Of a stretch of DNA of 64,000 bases, positions 43,035 through 63,052 are shown one piece after another. Under the pieces are notes generated by a model. That model searched no databases and was not told where the DNA came from. It saw only the letters and a list, made by a program, of their open reading frames with translations. The DNA is taken from contig SVMJ01000009.1 of assembly GCA_015067485.1 (NCBI GenBank), positions 1 through 64,000 of the forward strand. Reading direction: 5' to 3'. Both the position numbers and the translations under genes were made by a program. Position 1 is the first letter of the stretch, and every line of letters starts with the position of its first letter. The stretch comes from Oscillospiraceae bacterium (GTDB lineage: Bacteria; Bacillota; Clostridia; Oscillospirales; JAAYXM01).

Positions 43035-45677
43035 CTATTTTGCATTTGCGGAAACAAAGCCTTCTACAACCGCGAGTGCTTCGTCAAGTTTCGAGACGTC
43101 GCTGCCGCCTGCCATCGCGCTGTCAGGCTTACCGCCGCCGCTGCCGCCTGCTACGGTCGCCACTTCACGGACGAGTTTACCCGCCTGTACACCGCGTGCG
43201 ACCGCATCCTTACCGCAGCCGGAAACAAACACGATCTTTCCGTCGGTCACGCTTGCAAGGACCACGACGATGGAAGCATCCGCATCACGCAACTGGTCGC
43301 CGATGGTACGCAGAGCATCTGCCTTAACACCGTCAAACTTCGCGGTAACCACATGGAGTCCTGCGACGTCTTTTGCGTTACCGAGCAAATCTTTCGCGTT
43401 ATTCTGTGCCAGTTTATCCTGCATTTTTGCGAGTTCCTGACGCAGGGTCTTTACTTCGTTTGCAATCCCAGCCGCTTTATTTGCCAGTTCCTTCGGAGAA
43501 GTCTTGAGCAGTTCTGCGAGCTGGTACATGGTGCGGTTGTTCTCTTCGATCACATCCAAAACCGCGGTACCGCAAATTGCTTCGATTCTGCGAACACCCG
43601 CTGCGACCGAAGATTCGGAGATGATTTTGAAGAGACCTGCCTTTGCGGTGTTGTCAAGGTGGATGCCGCCGCAGAGTTCGATGGAATAGTCGCCCATCTG
43701 AACCACGCGCACGATATTGCCGTACTTTTCGCCAAACAACGCCATCGCACCGCGCTTCTTTGCTTCTTCAATCGGCAAGGATTCCACAATGATCGGAAGA
43801 CCTGCCATCATTTTTTCATTTACTTTGCGTTCCACTGCAGAGATTTCTTCCGGAGTGAGTGCCGCAAAATGTGTAAAGTCGAAACGGACACTATCCGGAC
43901 CGACCAAGCTACCTGCCTGCTCGACGTGGGTGCCAAGCACTTCACGCAGTGCTTTCTGGAGCAAGTGGGTGGAAGAGTGTGCACGCATGATCGCTTCACG
44001 GCGTGCGGTGCCGACTGCTGCTTTCACGGTGTCGCCAACGCTTACCATACCGCTCACAACTTTACCGATATGCAGGAACTTTCCGTCGCGGGTTTTCTGA
44101 ACGTCGCTGATTTCAACGACGCCGACATCCTCGCCCACGACGAGTGTGCCGAAGTCTGCCATCTGTCCGCCGGATTCCGCATAGAATACGGTCTGGTCCA
44201 GTACGATACGGACTGCCATGTCTGCGCTTGCCGCATCGGAGAGTTCTCCGTCTGCAACGAGTGCCAGAATTTTCCCTTCGCATTCGGTCTTGTCATAACC
44301 CAAAAACTCAGTTTTCACATCCTTGTCCAAGCCAAGGTCCATGCTCTCCCAAGCAAAGTCGCCCATCGCCGCACGAGCCGCACGCGCGCGTTCACGCTGC
44401 TGGTTCATATACGCATCGTAACCGTCTCGGTCAACGCTGAGACCTTGTTCTTCCAGAATTTCAAGAGTCAGGTCAATCGGAAAGCCGAAAGTATCGTTGA
44501 GTTTGAATGCATCTTCGCCCGAAAGGACGGTTTTGTCTTCCGCCTTCATCTTGCCGATCATTTCATCGAGAATGTGGAGACCTGCATCGATGGTACGGTT
44601 GAAGTTTTCTTCTTCCATACGGACGACTTTCTGAATGAATTCCTGTTTCTGTACGAGTTCCGGATATGCGGAGCCGCTTTCACGGATCACGGTTGCGCAA
44701 ACATCATGCAGGAATGCGTCTTTGATGCCCAAAAGTCTGCCATGGCGAGCCGCACGGCGGAGCAAGCGCCGCAATACATAACCACGACCTTCATTGGACG
44801 GCATAACACCGTCGCAAATCAGCATAGTAGTACTGCGGATATGGTCGGTGATGATACGGAGCGAAACGTCGCCGTTTTCGCTGTCGCCGTATTCAACGCC
44901 TGCGATTTTCGAGATGTGAGCGGTGATGTTGCGAACGGTATCGACATCAAACAGAGAGTTGACCCCCTGCATAATGCAAGCGATACGTTCAAGCCCCATA
45001 CCGGTATCGATGTTACGCTGTTTGAGCGGGGTGTAGTTCCCTTCCCCATCATTGTGGAACTGGGTGAACACCAAGTTCCAGAATTCGACATAGCGGTCGC
45101 AATCGCAGCCCGGTGCACAGTTCGGGTCATCACAACCGTTTTCTTCCCCGCGGTCGAAATAAATTTCAGAGCACGGACCGCACGGACCCATACCGATTTC
45201 CCAGAAGTTATCCGCTTTCCCCAAACGCACCATACGATCTTCGGGGACACCGATTTCCTTGGTCCACAGATCCCATGCCTCGTCATCTTCGAGATAAACC
45301 GAGACATACAAACGATTGACCGGAATCTCGAGTTCCTTGGTGATGAACTCCCAAGCCCAAGTCATCGCTTCCTTCTTAAAATAATCGCCAAACGAGAAGT
45401 TTCCGAGCATTTCAAAGAACGTGCCGTGGCGGGATGTTTTACCCACGCGCTCGATATCCGGAGTACGGATACACTTTTGGCAAGTGGTTACACGCTTGCG
45501 CGGCGGGGTCAGTTCACCCGAGAAATACGGTTTGAGCGGTGCCATGCCCGAGTTGATCAGAAGCAAAGACTGATCTCCTTGCGGCAAGAGCGGGAAACTC
45601 GGCAAACGCAGATGTTCTTTCCCTTCAAAGAATGTAAGGAACTTTTCGCGTAATTCATTCAACCCTAAGTACTGCAT
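43035..45677 (-). CDS. alaS: alanine-tRNA ligase
   Basis: 880 residues, full length. Class II catalytic core (GMAPLKPYFSG, RHGTFFEMLGNFSFGDYF), a tRNA-recognition helical domain, the editing domain with zinc motif AHSSTHLL and CGGIHLDNT, and a C-terminal Gly-rich DHHA1/C-Ala domain. An unusual Cys-rich insertion (GCDDPNCAPGCDCDRY) in the catalytic domain is seen in other Firmicute AlaRS. The ATG at 45677 follows GGAGG. No T-box leader in front. Confidence 0.97.
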   Translation of the reverse strand: MQYLGLNELREKFLTFFEGKEHLRLPSFPLLPQGDQSLLLINSGMAPLKPYFSGELTPPRKRVTTCQKCIRTPDIERVGKTSRHGTFFEMLGNFSFGDYFKKEAMTWAWEFITKELEIPVNRLYVSVYLEDDEAWDLWTKEIGVPEDRMVRLGKADNFWEIGMGPCGPCSEIYFDRGEENGCDDPNCAPGCDCDRYVEFWNLVFTQFHNDGEGNYTPLKQRNIDTGMGLERIACIMQGVNSLFDVDTVRNITAHISKIAGVEYGDSENGDVSLRIITDHIRSTTMLICDGVMPSNEGRGYVLRRLLRRAARHGRLLGIKDAFLHDVCATVIRESGSAYPELVQKQEFIQKVVRMEEENFNRTIDAGLHILDEMIGKMKAEDKTVLSGEDAFKLNDTFGFPIDLTLEILEEQGLSVDRDGYDAYMNQQRERARAARAAMGDFAWESMDLGLDKDVKTEFLGYDKTECEGKILALVADGELSDAASADMAVRIVLDQTVFYAESGGQMADFGTLVVGEDVGVVEISDVQKTRDGKFLHIGKVVSGMVSVGDTVKAAVGTARREAIMRAHSSTHLLQKALREVLGTHVEQAGSLVGPDSVRFDFTHFAALTPEEISAVERKVNEKMMAGLPIIVESLPIEEAKKRGAMALFGEKYGNIVRVVQMGDYSIELCGGIHLDNTAKAGLFKIISESSVAAGVRRIEAICGTAVLDVIEENNRTMYQLAELLKTSPKELANKAAGIANEVKTLRQELAKMQDKLAQNNAKDLLGNAKDVAGLHVVTAKFDGVKADALRTIGDQLRDADASIVVVLASVTDGKIVFVSGCGKDAVARGVQAGKLVREVATVAGGSGGGKPDSAMAGGSDVSKLDEALAVVEGFVSANAK

Positions 45678-45715
45678 AACTACCTCCGAACAGACCAAAC
45701 TAATCATATTCTATT

Positions 45716-45857: not shown

Positions 45858-46703
45858 ATGAAACGAATTGTTGCACTTTTCATGACCGCTTGCATCGCAT
45901 TTTCTATGCTCGCGGGATGTTCCGATCCGATCCCTCCGGCTGAAAAAGTAGGACTCAACGGTGCATTTTTGATCTCGCATCTGGAAGGGATGAAAGTCGG
46001 TTATATGGAAGGGTTCTCCGACCCTGATGTCATCAAAGAAGGAAGCCGCGGCGCAAAGCTGAAAAAATACACTTCTCTTGAGAAATTGGCTCAGGATGTC
46101 AAAGACGGCAAACTCTATGCCGCAGTGCTTCCGCAAGTGTATGCAGACGATGTTTTGAGTGAAAACCGCGACCTTGCACAAATGCTTCAAAAACTCGAAG
46201 AGGGTGCATACTCTTTCACCAATTGCTACAAAGGTCCCGAAGAAGATTATGATATTCTGATGCAGGCGGATGCCACCCTTTCTCTCATCAAGGGAAACGG
46301 CGACTATCAGGTTTTGCTTGACCGTTATATCTACGGAAATCCCGATGATGTGGAAGAAATCGAACTCAACTCCGCAACCACCGGTCGCACTTTGACCGTG
46401 GGTATCTATCCGAATTTCAAGCCGTTTGCGTACAAGAGCAAGAGCGGAAACCTGGTGGGCTTTGCGGTGGAATTTGCAAACGCGGTCGCAAAGACTTGGG
46501 ATTCGAACATTGAGTTTTTCGTCTACGACGATGCGGACGAACTCTATCAGGATTCCAAAGACGATAAAGTGATGATCGCGATCGGACCGTTCACCAAAAC
46601 CGATGATGTTCCGGAGGATTTCTACTACTCGAAACCCTATATTGATATGTCCCAGGTGGTCATTCTGCGAGATGACAACGTGGGAAAGATTCCGCAAAAC
46701 TAA
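45858..46703 (+). CDS. solute-binding-protein-3-like lipoprotein with swapped lobe order
   Basis: 281 residues; lipobox LAGC (Cys21). Residues about 40-155 read like the second lobe of a family 3 binding protein (LEGMKVGYMEGFS..., then SLEKLAQDVKDGKLYAAVL, ending YQVLLDRYIYG). Residues about 172-280 read like the first lobe (RTLTVGIYPNFKPFAYKSKSG, NLVGFAVEFANAVAKTW, IGPFTKTDDVPEDFYYSKPY). The chain ends just where lobe 1 normally crosses to lobe 2. No permease or ATPase is adjacent. Ligand unknown. The ribosome site is weak. Confidence 0.75.
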   Translation: MKRIVALFMTACIAFSMLAGCSDPIPPAEKVGLNGAFLISHLEGMKVGYMEGFSDPDVIKEGSRGAKLKKYTSLEKLAQDVKDGKLYAAVLPQVYADDVLSENRDLAQMLQKLEEGAYSFTNCYKGPEEDYDILMQADATLSLIKGNGDYQVLLDRYIYGNPDDVEEIELNSATTGRTLTVGIYPNFKPFAYKSKSGNLVGFAVEFANAVAKTWDSNIEFFVYDDADELYQDSKDDKVMIAIGPFTKTDDVPEDFYYSKPYIDMSQVVILRDDNVGKIPQN

Positions 46704-46706
46704 ACT

Positions 46707-46736
46707 AAAAAGAGTCGCCAAAGGGCGACTCTTTTT
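46707..46736. terminator. bidirectional terminator
   Basis: Stem AAAAAGAGTCGCC / GGCGACTCTTTTT between convergent genes. Confidence 0.88.
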
Positions 46737-47474
46737 CTATGCTTTGGATAAAAGTTCGAGTAACGTTCGCTTGTATGCGGAAAATGCTTCGGATGTGAGA
46801 AATTCGGTATCACGCGGTTTTTCCCCTTTAATCTGCACTTCACCGACAATCTTTCCCGGGATTCCGTTTAATACATAAACGCGGTCGGAAAGACGGATCG
46901 CTTCGTCCACGTCATGCGTGATGAAGAACGTGGAAAATCCCATTTTCTCCGCGACAGATAAATACCACTTGTGCAGATCCGCTTTGGTGATCGCATCCAA
47001 CGCGGAAAACGGTTCGTCCAAAAGCAGAACACTTCCCGAAAACAGATAGGTCCGCAGCAGCGCCGCTCGTTGGCGCATCCCGCCCGAGAGTTGACTCGGA
47101 TAAAACTTCTCATATCCCGCGATCCCGAATGTTTCAAAGAGCGGAAGTGCTTGTTCTTTCGCCTCTTTTTTGCCTACTCCACGCACCAAAAGCGGTAAAA
47201 TCACATTATCAAGAATCGTTTTGTGTTGTAGGAGCAAATCCTTTTGCAGCATATAGCTCACACGCCCCGGCGTCCCTGTGATGTGATCCCCATTCAGCGT
47301 AACCGAGCCTTCGTCCGGTTTCATCACACCCGAAAGGACATGGAACAGCGTCGTTTTCCCCACTCCGCTCGGACCGATGAGCGACACTTGCTCCCCGTCG
47401 CGGATGGTGATTGAGACATCTTCGATGGTCGCTTTCCCCTGATATCGTTTTGTGATGTTTTCCGCGATTAGCAT
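46737..47474 (-). CDS. ABC transporter ATP-binding protein, thiamine-precursor type (ThiZ-like)
   Basis: 245 residues with Walker A GPSGVGKTT, signature LSGGMRQRAALLR and Walker B VLLLDEPFSALD, of the nitrate/sulfonate/taurine (SsuB/ThiZ) class. The C-terminus carries KGEKPRDTEFLTSEAF as in that class. The start follows AGGAGAAGG. Last gene of the riboswitch-controlled operon; its start codon lies 14 nt beyond the binding-protein stop. Confidence 0.9.
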   Translation of the reverse strand: MLIAENITKRYQGKATIEDVSITIRDGEQVSLIGPSGVGKTTLFHVLSGVMKPDEGSVTLNGDHITGTPGRVSYMLQKDLLLQHKTILDNVILPLLVRGVGKKEAKEQALPLFETFGIAGYEKFYPSQLSGGMRQRAALLRTYLFSGSVLLLDEPFSALDAITKADLHKWYLSVAEKMGFSTFFITHDVDEAIRLSDRVYVLNGIPGKIVGEVQIKGEKPRDTEFLTSEAFSAYKRTLLELLSKA

Positions 47475-47487
47475 AGGCCTTCTCCTT

Positions 47488-48471
47488 TTATTGCGGCAGA
47501 TATTGGTTGGTGAATCCGTTTGCACCAAGCGAGGTCGCAGTCATCTTCTTTTCATACATCCACTCATTAAAGCGACTCCAGCGTTCGGTGTCGATCCATC
47601 CCCATTGCGGCGCGTCGGCAATGTACTCTTTGGACAAATATTGCTGACTTTCGATCAAAACTTCAAGATCGAGTTCAGGTACTGCTTCCGCCAAAATCTC
47701 TGCGGCTTCTTCCGGATGTTCGACCGCATATTCGTAGCCCTTTGCGGTCGCACGGAGAAACGCCTTGACGGATTCGGGATTTTCGTTGATATAAGCGTTA
47801 TTTGCAATGATGACCGGGGTATAATAATCCAAAATCGGATTCGCCTCGGCAAACGGCAGGAAGTTTAGTTCATATCCCTTTTTCTCGCCGATGATGCCGT
47901 CCCAGCCGTAATAGATCCAAATCGCATCAAAGTCGGTCTGCAACGCGGCATAGGTATCGGTTGCGGTATTGTTGATGATGTTGATTTTTGTCGGGTCTCC
48001 GTTTGCCGCACGCATCGCGTCAAACAAAATCTCATCATAGATCGGGATGCCCCAGCTTGCGTAGGTTTTTCCTTCCAAATCTGCAAACGACTCGATCCCA
48101 CGGTCTTTGAGCGACACCACCCCACTCGTATTGTGTTGTATAATTGCGCTCACCGCGGTAATCGGAAGTGTTTCACCCGCAGTGAGTGCGGCCGCGACTT
48201 CTTCCTGGAAGGACACACCGTATTCCGCGCGACCGGACGCGACCATCATGGGTGCCCCGTCTTCGGGCGGCTGGACGATCTCAACTGCAAGGCCTTCTTC
48301 CAAGTAATATCCAAGCGCGTATGCGACATATACGCCCGTATGATTGGTGTTCGGCGTCCAGTCCAGAACAAATGTGATTTTCTCTAAATGGTCTTCCTGT
48401 GCGCGCTCACGACACGCGCAAAGCGAGAAGCAGAGAATTGCGCAAAGAAGTAATGCTGTCAGTCTTTTCAT
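47488..48471 (-). CDS. ABC transporter substrate-binding lipoprotein, thiamine-precursor type (ThiY-like)
   Basis: 327 residues, NMT1/THI5-like. Lipoprotein signal ending LCAC. The mature start ITFVLDWTPNTNHTGVYVA is the hallmark of ThiY/NMT1 proteins that bind HMP or formylaminopyrimidine. TPP control and the thiamine-binding partner gene support a pyrimidine-precursor substrate. It overlaps the permease gene by 4 nt. Confidence 0.9.
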   Translation of the reverse strand: MKRLTALLLCAILCFSLCACRERAQEDHLEKITFVLDWTPNTNHTGVYVAYALGYYLEEGLAVEIVQPPEDGAPMMVASGRAEYGVSFQEEVAAALTAGETLPITAVSAIIQHNTSGVVSLKDRGIESFADLEGKTYASWGIPIYDEILFDAMRAANGDPTKINIINNTATDTYAALQTDFDAIWIYYGWDGIIGEKKGYELNFLPFAEANPILDYYTPVIIANNAYINENPESVKAFLRATAKGYEYAVEHPEEAAEILAEAVPELDLEVLIESQQYLSKEYIADAPQWGWIDTERWSRFNEWMYEKKMTATSLGANGFTNQYLPQ

Positions 48472-49247
48472 TGGTTTGATTCCTCTCTAATGTTCTCCCA
48501 CGGGCGCGTTTTGCGCTTGATCCTTTTCAGCAGCCAGATCAAAGACAAACTGATGAACACGATCCAAAAGATAACGGCAAACATTTTATCAAACGCGTAT
48601 GCTTTTCGCACACGAGTCATATACACGCCAAGTCCTGCAGAGCCGCCGAGCCATTCCGCGACCACCGCGCTCACCACCGCGTAAGAGACCGAAATCTCAA
48701 GTCCGGAAAAGAGAGACGGGATCGCGCTCGGCAGTTTTACGTGCCATAATATTTGCCACTCGCTTGCGCCCATTGCTTTGAGCAGCAGGATTTGATCCGG
48801 TTCGATCGATTGGAATCCGTTCATGAGTGCAATGGTGATCGGAAAAAAACAGGTCAACACCACAAGGGTAACCTTGGGTGCCAAACCGTATCCCAACCAC
48901 AGCACCAGAAGCGGCGCGATTGCGACCATGGGGATGGTTTGTGAAATGACCAGAATCGGATAAACCGCCTTTCGGATAACAGAGCACTGTTCCATGACAA
49001 GTGCGAGTAAAACCGCAAGAACAATGCTGATGGAAAGACCGAAAAACGCTTCTTGCAATGTGATGTAGGAATGATCGAGCAGAATTCTAAATTCCGAGCA
49101 AAATGCTTTGAGCACCGCGCTCGGACTCGGAAGCATAAACGGCGGGATCACGCCGCTCATGCAGAGTGCCTGCCACAACACGATCAGGAGAAGAATGAGC
49201 ATCAACGGATAGATTTTACTTTTGATGCTTCTTGGTTTTTGTTTCAA
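48468..49247 (-). CDS. ABC transporter permease, thiamine-precursor type (ThiX-like)
   Basis: About 259 residues, six membrane helices, with the EAA loop (LLKAMGASEWQILWHVKLPSA) that docks on the ATPase. Start choice: TTG at 49247 with AGGTG 7 nt before it; a GTG at 49262 is the alternative. Either start lies inside the MTH1187-type gene, so the two are translationally coupled. Confidence 0.88.
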   Translation of the reverse strand: MKQKPRSIKSKIYPLMLILLLIVLWQALCMSGVIPPFMLPSPSAVLKAFCSEFRILLDHSYITLQEAFFGLSISIVLAVLLALVMEQCSVIRKAVYPILVISQTIPMVAIAPLLVLWLGYGLAPKVTLVVLTCFFPITIALMNGFQSIEPDQILLLKAMGASEWQILWHVKLPSAIPSLFSGLEISVSYAVVSAVVAEWLGGSAGLGVYMTRVRKAYAFDKMFAVIFWIVFISLSLIWLLKRIKRKTRPWENIREESNQ

Positions 49248-49509
49248 TGCTCCACACCTCACCGTTTGGATGATAGGAAATTTTCACATAGGACATCACA
49301 CCCGGAGCACCTGCCCGAATGCAGATGTGCTGACATTCTTTCACAATCTCCATGAGTTCATCAAAGTCACCCTCGACCGTGGTTTCAAACGGACCCACAA
49401 AAACGGATGTGCATTTGCTTTTGATGTACGCAATCACTTCATCCACTACGCGGATGACATCTTCCCGCTCAACTTCCGGGAGCACTTGTATTGCTACGCT
49501 TGCATTCAT
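49216..49509 (-). CDS. MTH1187/YkoF-family thiamine-binding protein
   Basis: 97 residues, ferredoxin-like fold typical of the family: MNASVAIQVLPE, TTVEGDFDELMEIVKECQ, then GAPGVMSYVKISYHP. Small cytoplasmic protein that binds thiamine or its pyrimidine; commonly the first gene of riboswitch-controlled thi transporter operons. The start follows GGAGGTGAGATT. Confidence 0.9.
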   Translation of the reverse strand: MNASVAIQVLPEVEREDVIRVVDEVIAYIKSKCTSVFVGPFETTVEGDFDELMEIVKECQHICIRAGAPGVMSYVKISYHPNGEVWSIETKTKKHQK

Positions 49510-49559: not shown

Positions 49560-49579
49560 TTGTCATCTTCTCTCGAAAG

Positions 49580-49675
49580 AGCAATTCCTACGCCGGCATT
49601 ATCCGGATCAGGTTCCAGGGTTCCGGGCGCAACACGCCCGATCTCAGCCAAGTTTTCCACTCAGCACCCCGATTC
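49580..49675 (-). ncRNA. TPP riboswitch aptamer (THI element)
   Basis: The minus strand contains the conserved blocks GGGGTGCTGAG, GGCTGAGA, ACCCTGGAACCTGATC and GGATAATGCCGGCGTAGGAA in the correct order with a P3 hairpin between the second and third. High TPP should favour the downstream terminator and shut off the thi transporter. Confidence 0.95.
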
Positions 49676-49688
49676 ACTTGTCATGTAC

Positions 49689-62747: not shown

Positions 62748-63000
62748 AACAACAGAATAATGTTGTAACACGAAATGCGAAGATCAGAAACCAGTAAGTT
62801 GGAAAGAATCTTGAGAGAGTTGCCGGTTGGTGCGAGGCAAAGTGGGCGTCCTTCTGAATTCATTCTGTTAGCAGTGCGCTGAACAAGAGCAATCTTAAGT
62901 AGGATGCAACGGGAGTTCCCGTTATAGAACCAAGGTATGTTAGTACCCGATAAGGTTGCTACCGTGAGATAGCAACGAACTGAGGTGGTACCACGGGATT
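62748..63000 (+). ncRNA. T-box leader, probable Phe (UUC) specifier
   Basis: Recognised by AGAGAG and GGTTGGTGCGAGGC (stem I distal elements), the CTGAA that precedes the specifier, and the T-box sequence AGGTGGTACCACGG (62983-62996) that pairs with the tRNA acceptor end. The triplet after CTGAA is TTC (62859-62861), a Phe codon. Uncharged tRNA-Phe would favour antitermination. Confidence 0.9.
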
Positions 63001-63013
63001 ATTGTTTTCTCGT

Positions 63014-63052
63014 CCTCTGTATCCTGAAGGCAGGATTGCAGAGGTTTTTTTA
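63014..63052 (+). terminator. T-box-controlled intrinsic terminator
   Basis: Stem CCTCTGtATCCTG / CAGGATtgCAGAGG followed by seven T. The T-box sequence just upstream forms the competing antiterminator. Confidence 0.88.

Follow-up and report, generated by a model that had tools for sequence, protein, structure and literature searches.

Does the lipoprotein gene found on a contig of an Oscillospiraceae bacterium encode a family 3 solute-binding protein with its two lobes in swapped order, and if so, how could such a protein arise and what could it do? Herein, we analyzed a stretch of 64,000 nucleotides carrying this gene (hereafter, the window). The open reading frame was confirmed at positions 45858–46703 of the forward strand, with the ATG at 45858 and the stop codon at 46701–46703, and its translation is 281 amino acids long. 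The chain consists of a lipoprotein signal peptide (45858–45920) with the lipobox LAGC and Cys21, a short tether, a first domain stretch of residues 38–160 (45969–46337), a linker of ~15 residues (46338–46379), a second stretch of residues 175–274 (46380–46679), and a 7-residue tail. Cys21 of the lipobox was invariant in the alignment of the nine-member family to which the protein belongs.

The original prediction, that the N-terminal half resembles lobe 2 and the C-terminal half resembles lobe 1, was borne out by Pfam, phmmer, and hhalign. The Pfam model SBP_bac_3 (PF00497) matched with an E-value of 4.4e-16 and 59.3 bits (cut-off 26.4 bits), indicating a member of the superfamily, and its positions 1–94 fell on residues 179–274 only, with none on the N-terminal half. 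Against AncQR (4zv1), phmmer aligned residues 178–274 with chain positions 11–106 and residues 39–106 with positions 112–181. When the profile of the nine-member family was compared by hhalign, the half-by-half check that had been proposed, the N-terminal half was assigned to canonical positions 106–222 (probability 97.3, E 2e-11) and the C-terminal half to positions 4–100 (probability 99.2, E 3e-19). An HMM built solely from unpermuted proteins of the same order (Oscillospirales) aligned with the window protein at 107–221 (13.6 bits) and then at 4–100 (55.7 bits); the N-terminal half alone is weak with this HMM, and its strong score requires the family profile. Residues 38–160 thus correspond to lobe 2 and the C-terminal helices of lobe 1 (canonical ~106–222; hhalign, canonical-only HMM, and phmmer), and residues 175–274 to the N-terminal core of lobe 1 (canonical ~4–100; Pfam and hhalign).

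Both SBP_bac_3 lobes are present in the window protein, each once (hhalign). Instead of the canonical order of lobe 1N, lobe 2, and lobe 1C, the chain runs from lobe 2/1C to lobe 1N, indicating a permuted variant and not a standard member. The two halves jointly cover the canonical protein once, so the gene almost certainly encodes, as judged from its sequence, a complete circular permutant with its opening at hinge 1, the ~15-residue gap between the mapped stretches linking the native C-terminus to the native N-terminus. Both new ends map to hinge 1, in agreement with the claim that the chain ends where the lobes normally join. A circular permutation or a tandem duplication trimmed at both ends had been proposed, which is supported by the single full coverage and by the conservation of the order in nine species; formally, the two give an identical end state.

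Truncation was rejected on the basis of the complete sequence, the terminator, and conservation, and a frameshift on the basis of the terminator after the stop codon and conservation. This terminator, bidirectional and intrinsic, lies directly behind the gene at 46707–46736, between it and a convergent ThiXYZ-like operon. That both halves might match the same lobe had been raised with the prediction; according to hhalign they match different lobes, and a duplicated single lobe was therefore rejected as well.

The permuted order is common to nine species of the same family (Oscillospirales). A genome search gave strong colinear matches in the same genus (61%) and family, whereas matches from the remaining families of the order were weaker. 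With a subset query of the family, matches were obtained in four Oscillospiraceae gut metagenome bins, and a scan of viral contigs for additional family sequences found none. The nine members formed a single supported clade (100/99) in the tree; the branch leading to it is long, so that any placement of the clade next to one of the other permuted groups is tentative. The gene is intact across the nine species at identities down to ~23%, with the lipobox conserved. Comparison with the sister species gave a dN of 0.32, a dS of 2.0, which is near saturation, and a dN/dS of ~0.16, substitution rates indicating that the gene is under purifying selection.

The divergent neighbor of the window gene is alaS (43035–45707, reverse strand; identified by Pfam), followed by a HIT gene, and this alaS-HIT pair is beside or near the permuted gene in seven of the nine family members. 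Convergent to the gene, past the terminator, lies the ThiXYZ-like importer (46737–49262, reverse strand), which comprises an ATPase, an NMT1-type binding protein, and a permease and is headed by a TPP riboswitch (49568–49681, reverse strand). The statement that no transporter genes are adjacent was therefore literally wrong. However, this importer has its own NMT1-type binding protein, indicating that the window protein has no adjacent partner. A PAAT permease or ATPase downstream of the permuted gene was found in none of the nine family members. Elsewhere in the window, a T-box leader was detected at 62771–63020 on the forward strand (Rfam RF00230, 109.6 bits).

To define the distribution of the permuted arrangement, we searched genomes from the order (295), the class (245), and the phylum (398) and then mapped domains at the ORF level. 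Two permuted types were distinguished: type A runs from canonical ~97–224 to 2–97, the order of the window protein, and type B from ~165–224 to 2–170, with the cut inside lobe 2. Type A was represented by 55 distinct ORFs, counting the nine family members and an array fragment (L029) in the window's own genome, and type B by 25 ORFs. The search for homologues with the same order thus succeeded both within the family and among the wider type A ORFs. Arrays of several units that share this shifted register, [lobe 2-lobe 1]n-permease, were also found fused to a permease (L018, L031, L093, L094, L095, and L096), and a single type A unit was fused to a permease in L072, L075, and L107. The permuted types and shifted-register arrays occur mainly in Clostridia. 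The phylum sample gave few strong matches, with four genomes at E 1e-55. Three of these belong to the same class, and the remaining one, G608, is a match at the level of the genome search from outside it. In the window's own genome, a type B protein (L028:5422-7732, G000:C5) and a canonical protein (L047) were also present, each in a complete SBP-permease-ATPase operon, the latter being one of the unpermuted relatives that the prediction had called for. The array L031 (genome G003) comes from the same family as the window's genome. The permuted proteins tested all stayed below the cut-offs of the NCBIfam binding-protein models and gave partial matches in rotated order; standard profiles match just half of such proteins at once.

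Natural circular permutations are usually regarded as rare and ancient. To examine how often the order has changed here, a tree was built from 91 rotated sequences labeled as type A, type A from the window's family, type B, canonical, or array. The labels required 16 changes on this tree, with a minimum possible number of 4, the alignment having ~220 columns with long branches and the canonical sample being hand-picked among search hits. From the well-supported branches, no fewer than five changes are needed for A and likewise for B, and some changes could be reversals. A single origin was rejected for both types, as holding all B sequences together gave a p-AU of 3e-5 and holding all A sequences together gave 3e-8. 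When the two halves were placed in separate trees, three test groups stayed together: the type B L119 with the canonical L147, the type B L097 and L113 with the canonical L150, and the two type A proteins of L084 with the canonical L010. In these groups, both halves thus cluster with the same canonical proteins, which is evidence against lobe shuffling, and a chimera of unrelated lobes was rejected. The clearest pair was L113 (type B) and L150 (canonical), in which residues 112–279 of the former match 29–196 of the latter at 79% and residues 46–94 match 199–247 at 73%, each range being matched once. It is highly probable that family 3 proteins of Clostridia have been permuted recurrently at two preferred break points, one at hinge 1 and the other inside lobe 2 ahead of its last strands, in several independent events including at least one recent one, yielding working importers, permease-fused arrays in the shifted register, and a detached family whose ligand residues are altered and which lacks an importer. 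Such a recurrently permuted class offers natural templates for biosensor design.

For the proposed structure check, which looks for a closed two-lobe cleft, two AlphaFold (AF2) models were made from a five-sequence alignment; both were weak, with mean pLDDT values of 57.5 and 56.5 and pTM values of 0.42 and 0.53. The best Foldseek match of both weak models was the GlnPQ SBD1-SBD2 tandem, and the lobe-1 part of the weak model recovered the lobe-1 fold, with a TMt of 0.64 to the isolated TmArgBP domain 1. The best profile match of the permuted proteins was also the GlnPQ tandem (6h30). Among the best 60 PDB chains for the type A profile, this tandem was the only colinear match, and the permuted order was found in no single-domain chain. 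In the SBD1-SBD2-permease of GlnPQ from Lactococcus, lobe 2 of SBD1, the linker, and lobe 1 of SBD2 are colinear with the permuted protein, and the ~15-residue linker of the window protein resembles the natural SBD1-SBD2 linker of GlnP, which is 14 aa long (PMC8025302). However, GlnP arrays start with lobe 1 and finish with lobe-1 helices, whereas the arrays described here start with lobe 2, and lobe 1 runs directly into the permease.

Compared with canonical SBP_bac_3 proteins (PF00497; cluster F, such as GlnH, ArtJ, and AncQR), the window's family shares both lobes, the lipoprotein anchor, and the core motifs, but is rotated at hinge 1 and lacks the ligand Arg and Asp and the permease-ATPase partner. 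A naturally permuted, anchored solute-binding protein is known in Treponema pallidum, namely, the glucose-binding Tp0684 (MglB-2), which adopts a bilobed fold, has relatives among Gram-positive bacteria, and is classed as 'Type Ic / Cluster Bc' (PMC4990184). Tp0684 differs from the window protein in its type I (cluster B) fold and its break point, and the window protein belongs to SBP_bac_3 (type II) by its Pfam and PDB matches and not to Type Ic / Cluster Bc. Engineered halves of ribose-binding protein likewise show that binding-protein lobes tolerate permutation, although these constructs are designed single lobes of a sugar-binding type I protein (PMC9815098). In the open-licence literature, Tp0684 and the engineered cases were the only ones found, with no description of a natural permutation of family 3 proteins.

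As for the origin, we infer a duplication-and-trim route. Starting from two or more binding domains in tandem, type A would result from an in-frame loss of the first lobe 1 combined with an early stop behind a later one, and type B from a cut inside lobe 2. The permuted protein of the window's family may then have lost its importer operon and come to serve as an anchored lipoprotein for a partner or for a ligand other than standard amino acids. A tandem in the unpermuted order, also fused to a permease (L092), coexists with the shifted-register arrays. The near-identical permuted and unpermuted pairs and the plausible intermediates in living genomes make this route testable.

The ligand residues and operon context separate the window's family from the other permuted proteins. 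Outside this family, nearly all type A and type B genes have a PAAT-type permease directly behind them or fused to them, in most cases together with an ATPase; the exceptions are L081, L083, and L085 (type A), L115 (type B), and the array fragment L029. Of the 45 other type A proteins, 42 keep the lobe-1 Arg and 44 the lobe-2 Asp; among the 25 type B proteins, the corresponding counts are 24 and 25. This context and retention indicate that most permuted proteins resemble ordinary importer proteins, and presumably they are such binding proteins, tethered via the hinge instead of lobe 1. In the window's family, the Arg is present in 0/9 and the Asp in 1/9 members. Alignment column analysis placed Val251 (46608–46610) where the carboxylate-binding Arg of lobe 1 is expected and Pro92 (46131–46133) where the ligand Asp of lobe 2 is expected, and the Arg position varies among V, A, K, I, E, M, and N in the family. 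The three other type A proteins without the Arg are exactly the permease-less L081, L083, and L085, indicating that detachment from the importer accompanies loss of the ligand Arg. However, the canonical importer proteins L015, L016, and L020, from another subfamily, also lack the Arg, which means that a protein may still bind a ligand without it. We tentatively suggest, at somewhat less than an even chance, that the window's family is a permuted protein detached from its importer, which lost alpha-amino-acid recognition and has been retained, still as a lipoprotein, for sensing or holding another ligand or a protein partner. The account as a whole is probable.

The main competing view of function is that the window protein still works as a binding protein, carrying another small ligand and delivering it in trans to a PAAT-type permease of the same genome. 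We consider this possible but rather doubtful. The genome has at least two complete SBP-permease-ATPase operons (the type B L028 and the canonical L047), the gene is conserved under purifying selection, and lobe 1 is well preserved (Pfam E 4e-16), all of which favor delivery in trans; however, each of the two operons owns a binding protein, and with the Arg lost in 9/9 and the Asp in 8/9 members, the freely varying Arg site is unlike a refitted pocket. An alternative concerns assembly and not the ligand: the protein might form a lobe-swapped dimer, with lobe 2 of one chain packing on lobe 1 of the other, instead of a permuted monomer. An engineered permuted ribose-binding protein lobe does form a segment-swapped dimer (PMC9815098), and exchange should be easy with the new ends at the hinge. 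Against the dimer, which we regard as improbable, the ~15-residue linker joins ends that both lie within lobe 1, so that an intramolecular fold without a swap suffices, and the permuted Tp0684 is bilobed (PMC4990184).

It is less probable still that the gene is a functionless, decaying remnant of a permuted SBP-array-permease gene. The same-register array L031 (G003) in the same family, the array fragment L029 in the own genome, and the absence of operon partners would fit such a remnant, but the gene is intact in nine species to ~23% identity with a dN/dS of ~0.16, the lipobox is kept, and seven of the nine copies are beside or near alaS. As the window's genome assembly is fragmented (21 contigs, 83% complete), chance resemblance, a frameshift, or an assembly artefact was also considered; its likelihood is negligible, since the order recurs across dozens of separately assembled genomes, one of them the single-contig G241, and the artefact reading is refuted by this conservation.

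Several further gene arrangements were observed among the permuted proteins. L094:1330-4734, L095:1775-5200, and L096:1263-4727 encode polypeptides of 1134–1154 aa with two permuted units, a permease, and an ABC ATPase domain, and from these domains they are apparent all-in-one amino-acid importers. The ORF L029:1068-3311 (G000:C16; 747 aa) begins like a permuted SBP array and continues into unrelated phage-like sequence, possibly representing a chimeric contig or an insertion. In L084:1930-3800, two type A binding-protein genes stand in tandem in one operon, and in L087:1985-3761, a type B gene is followed by a type A gene in one operon.
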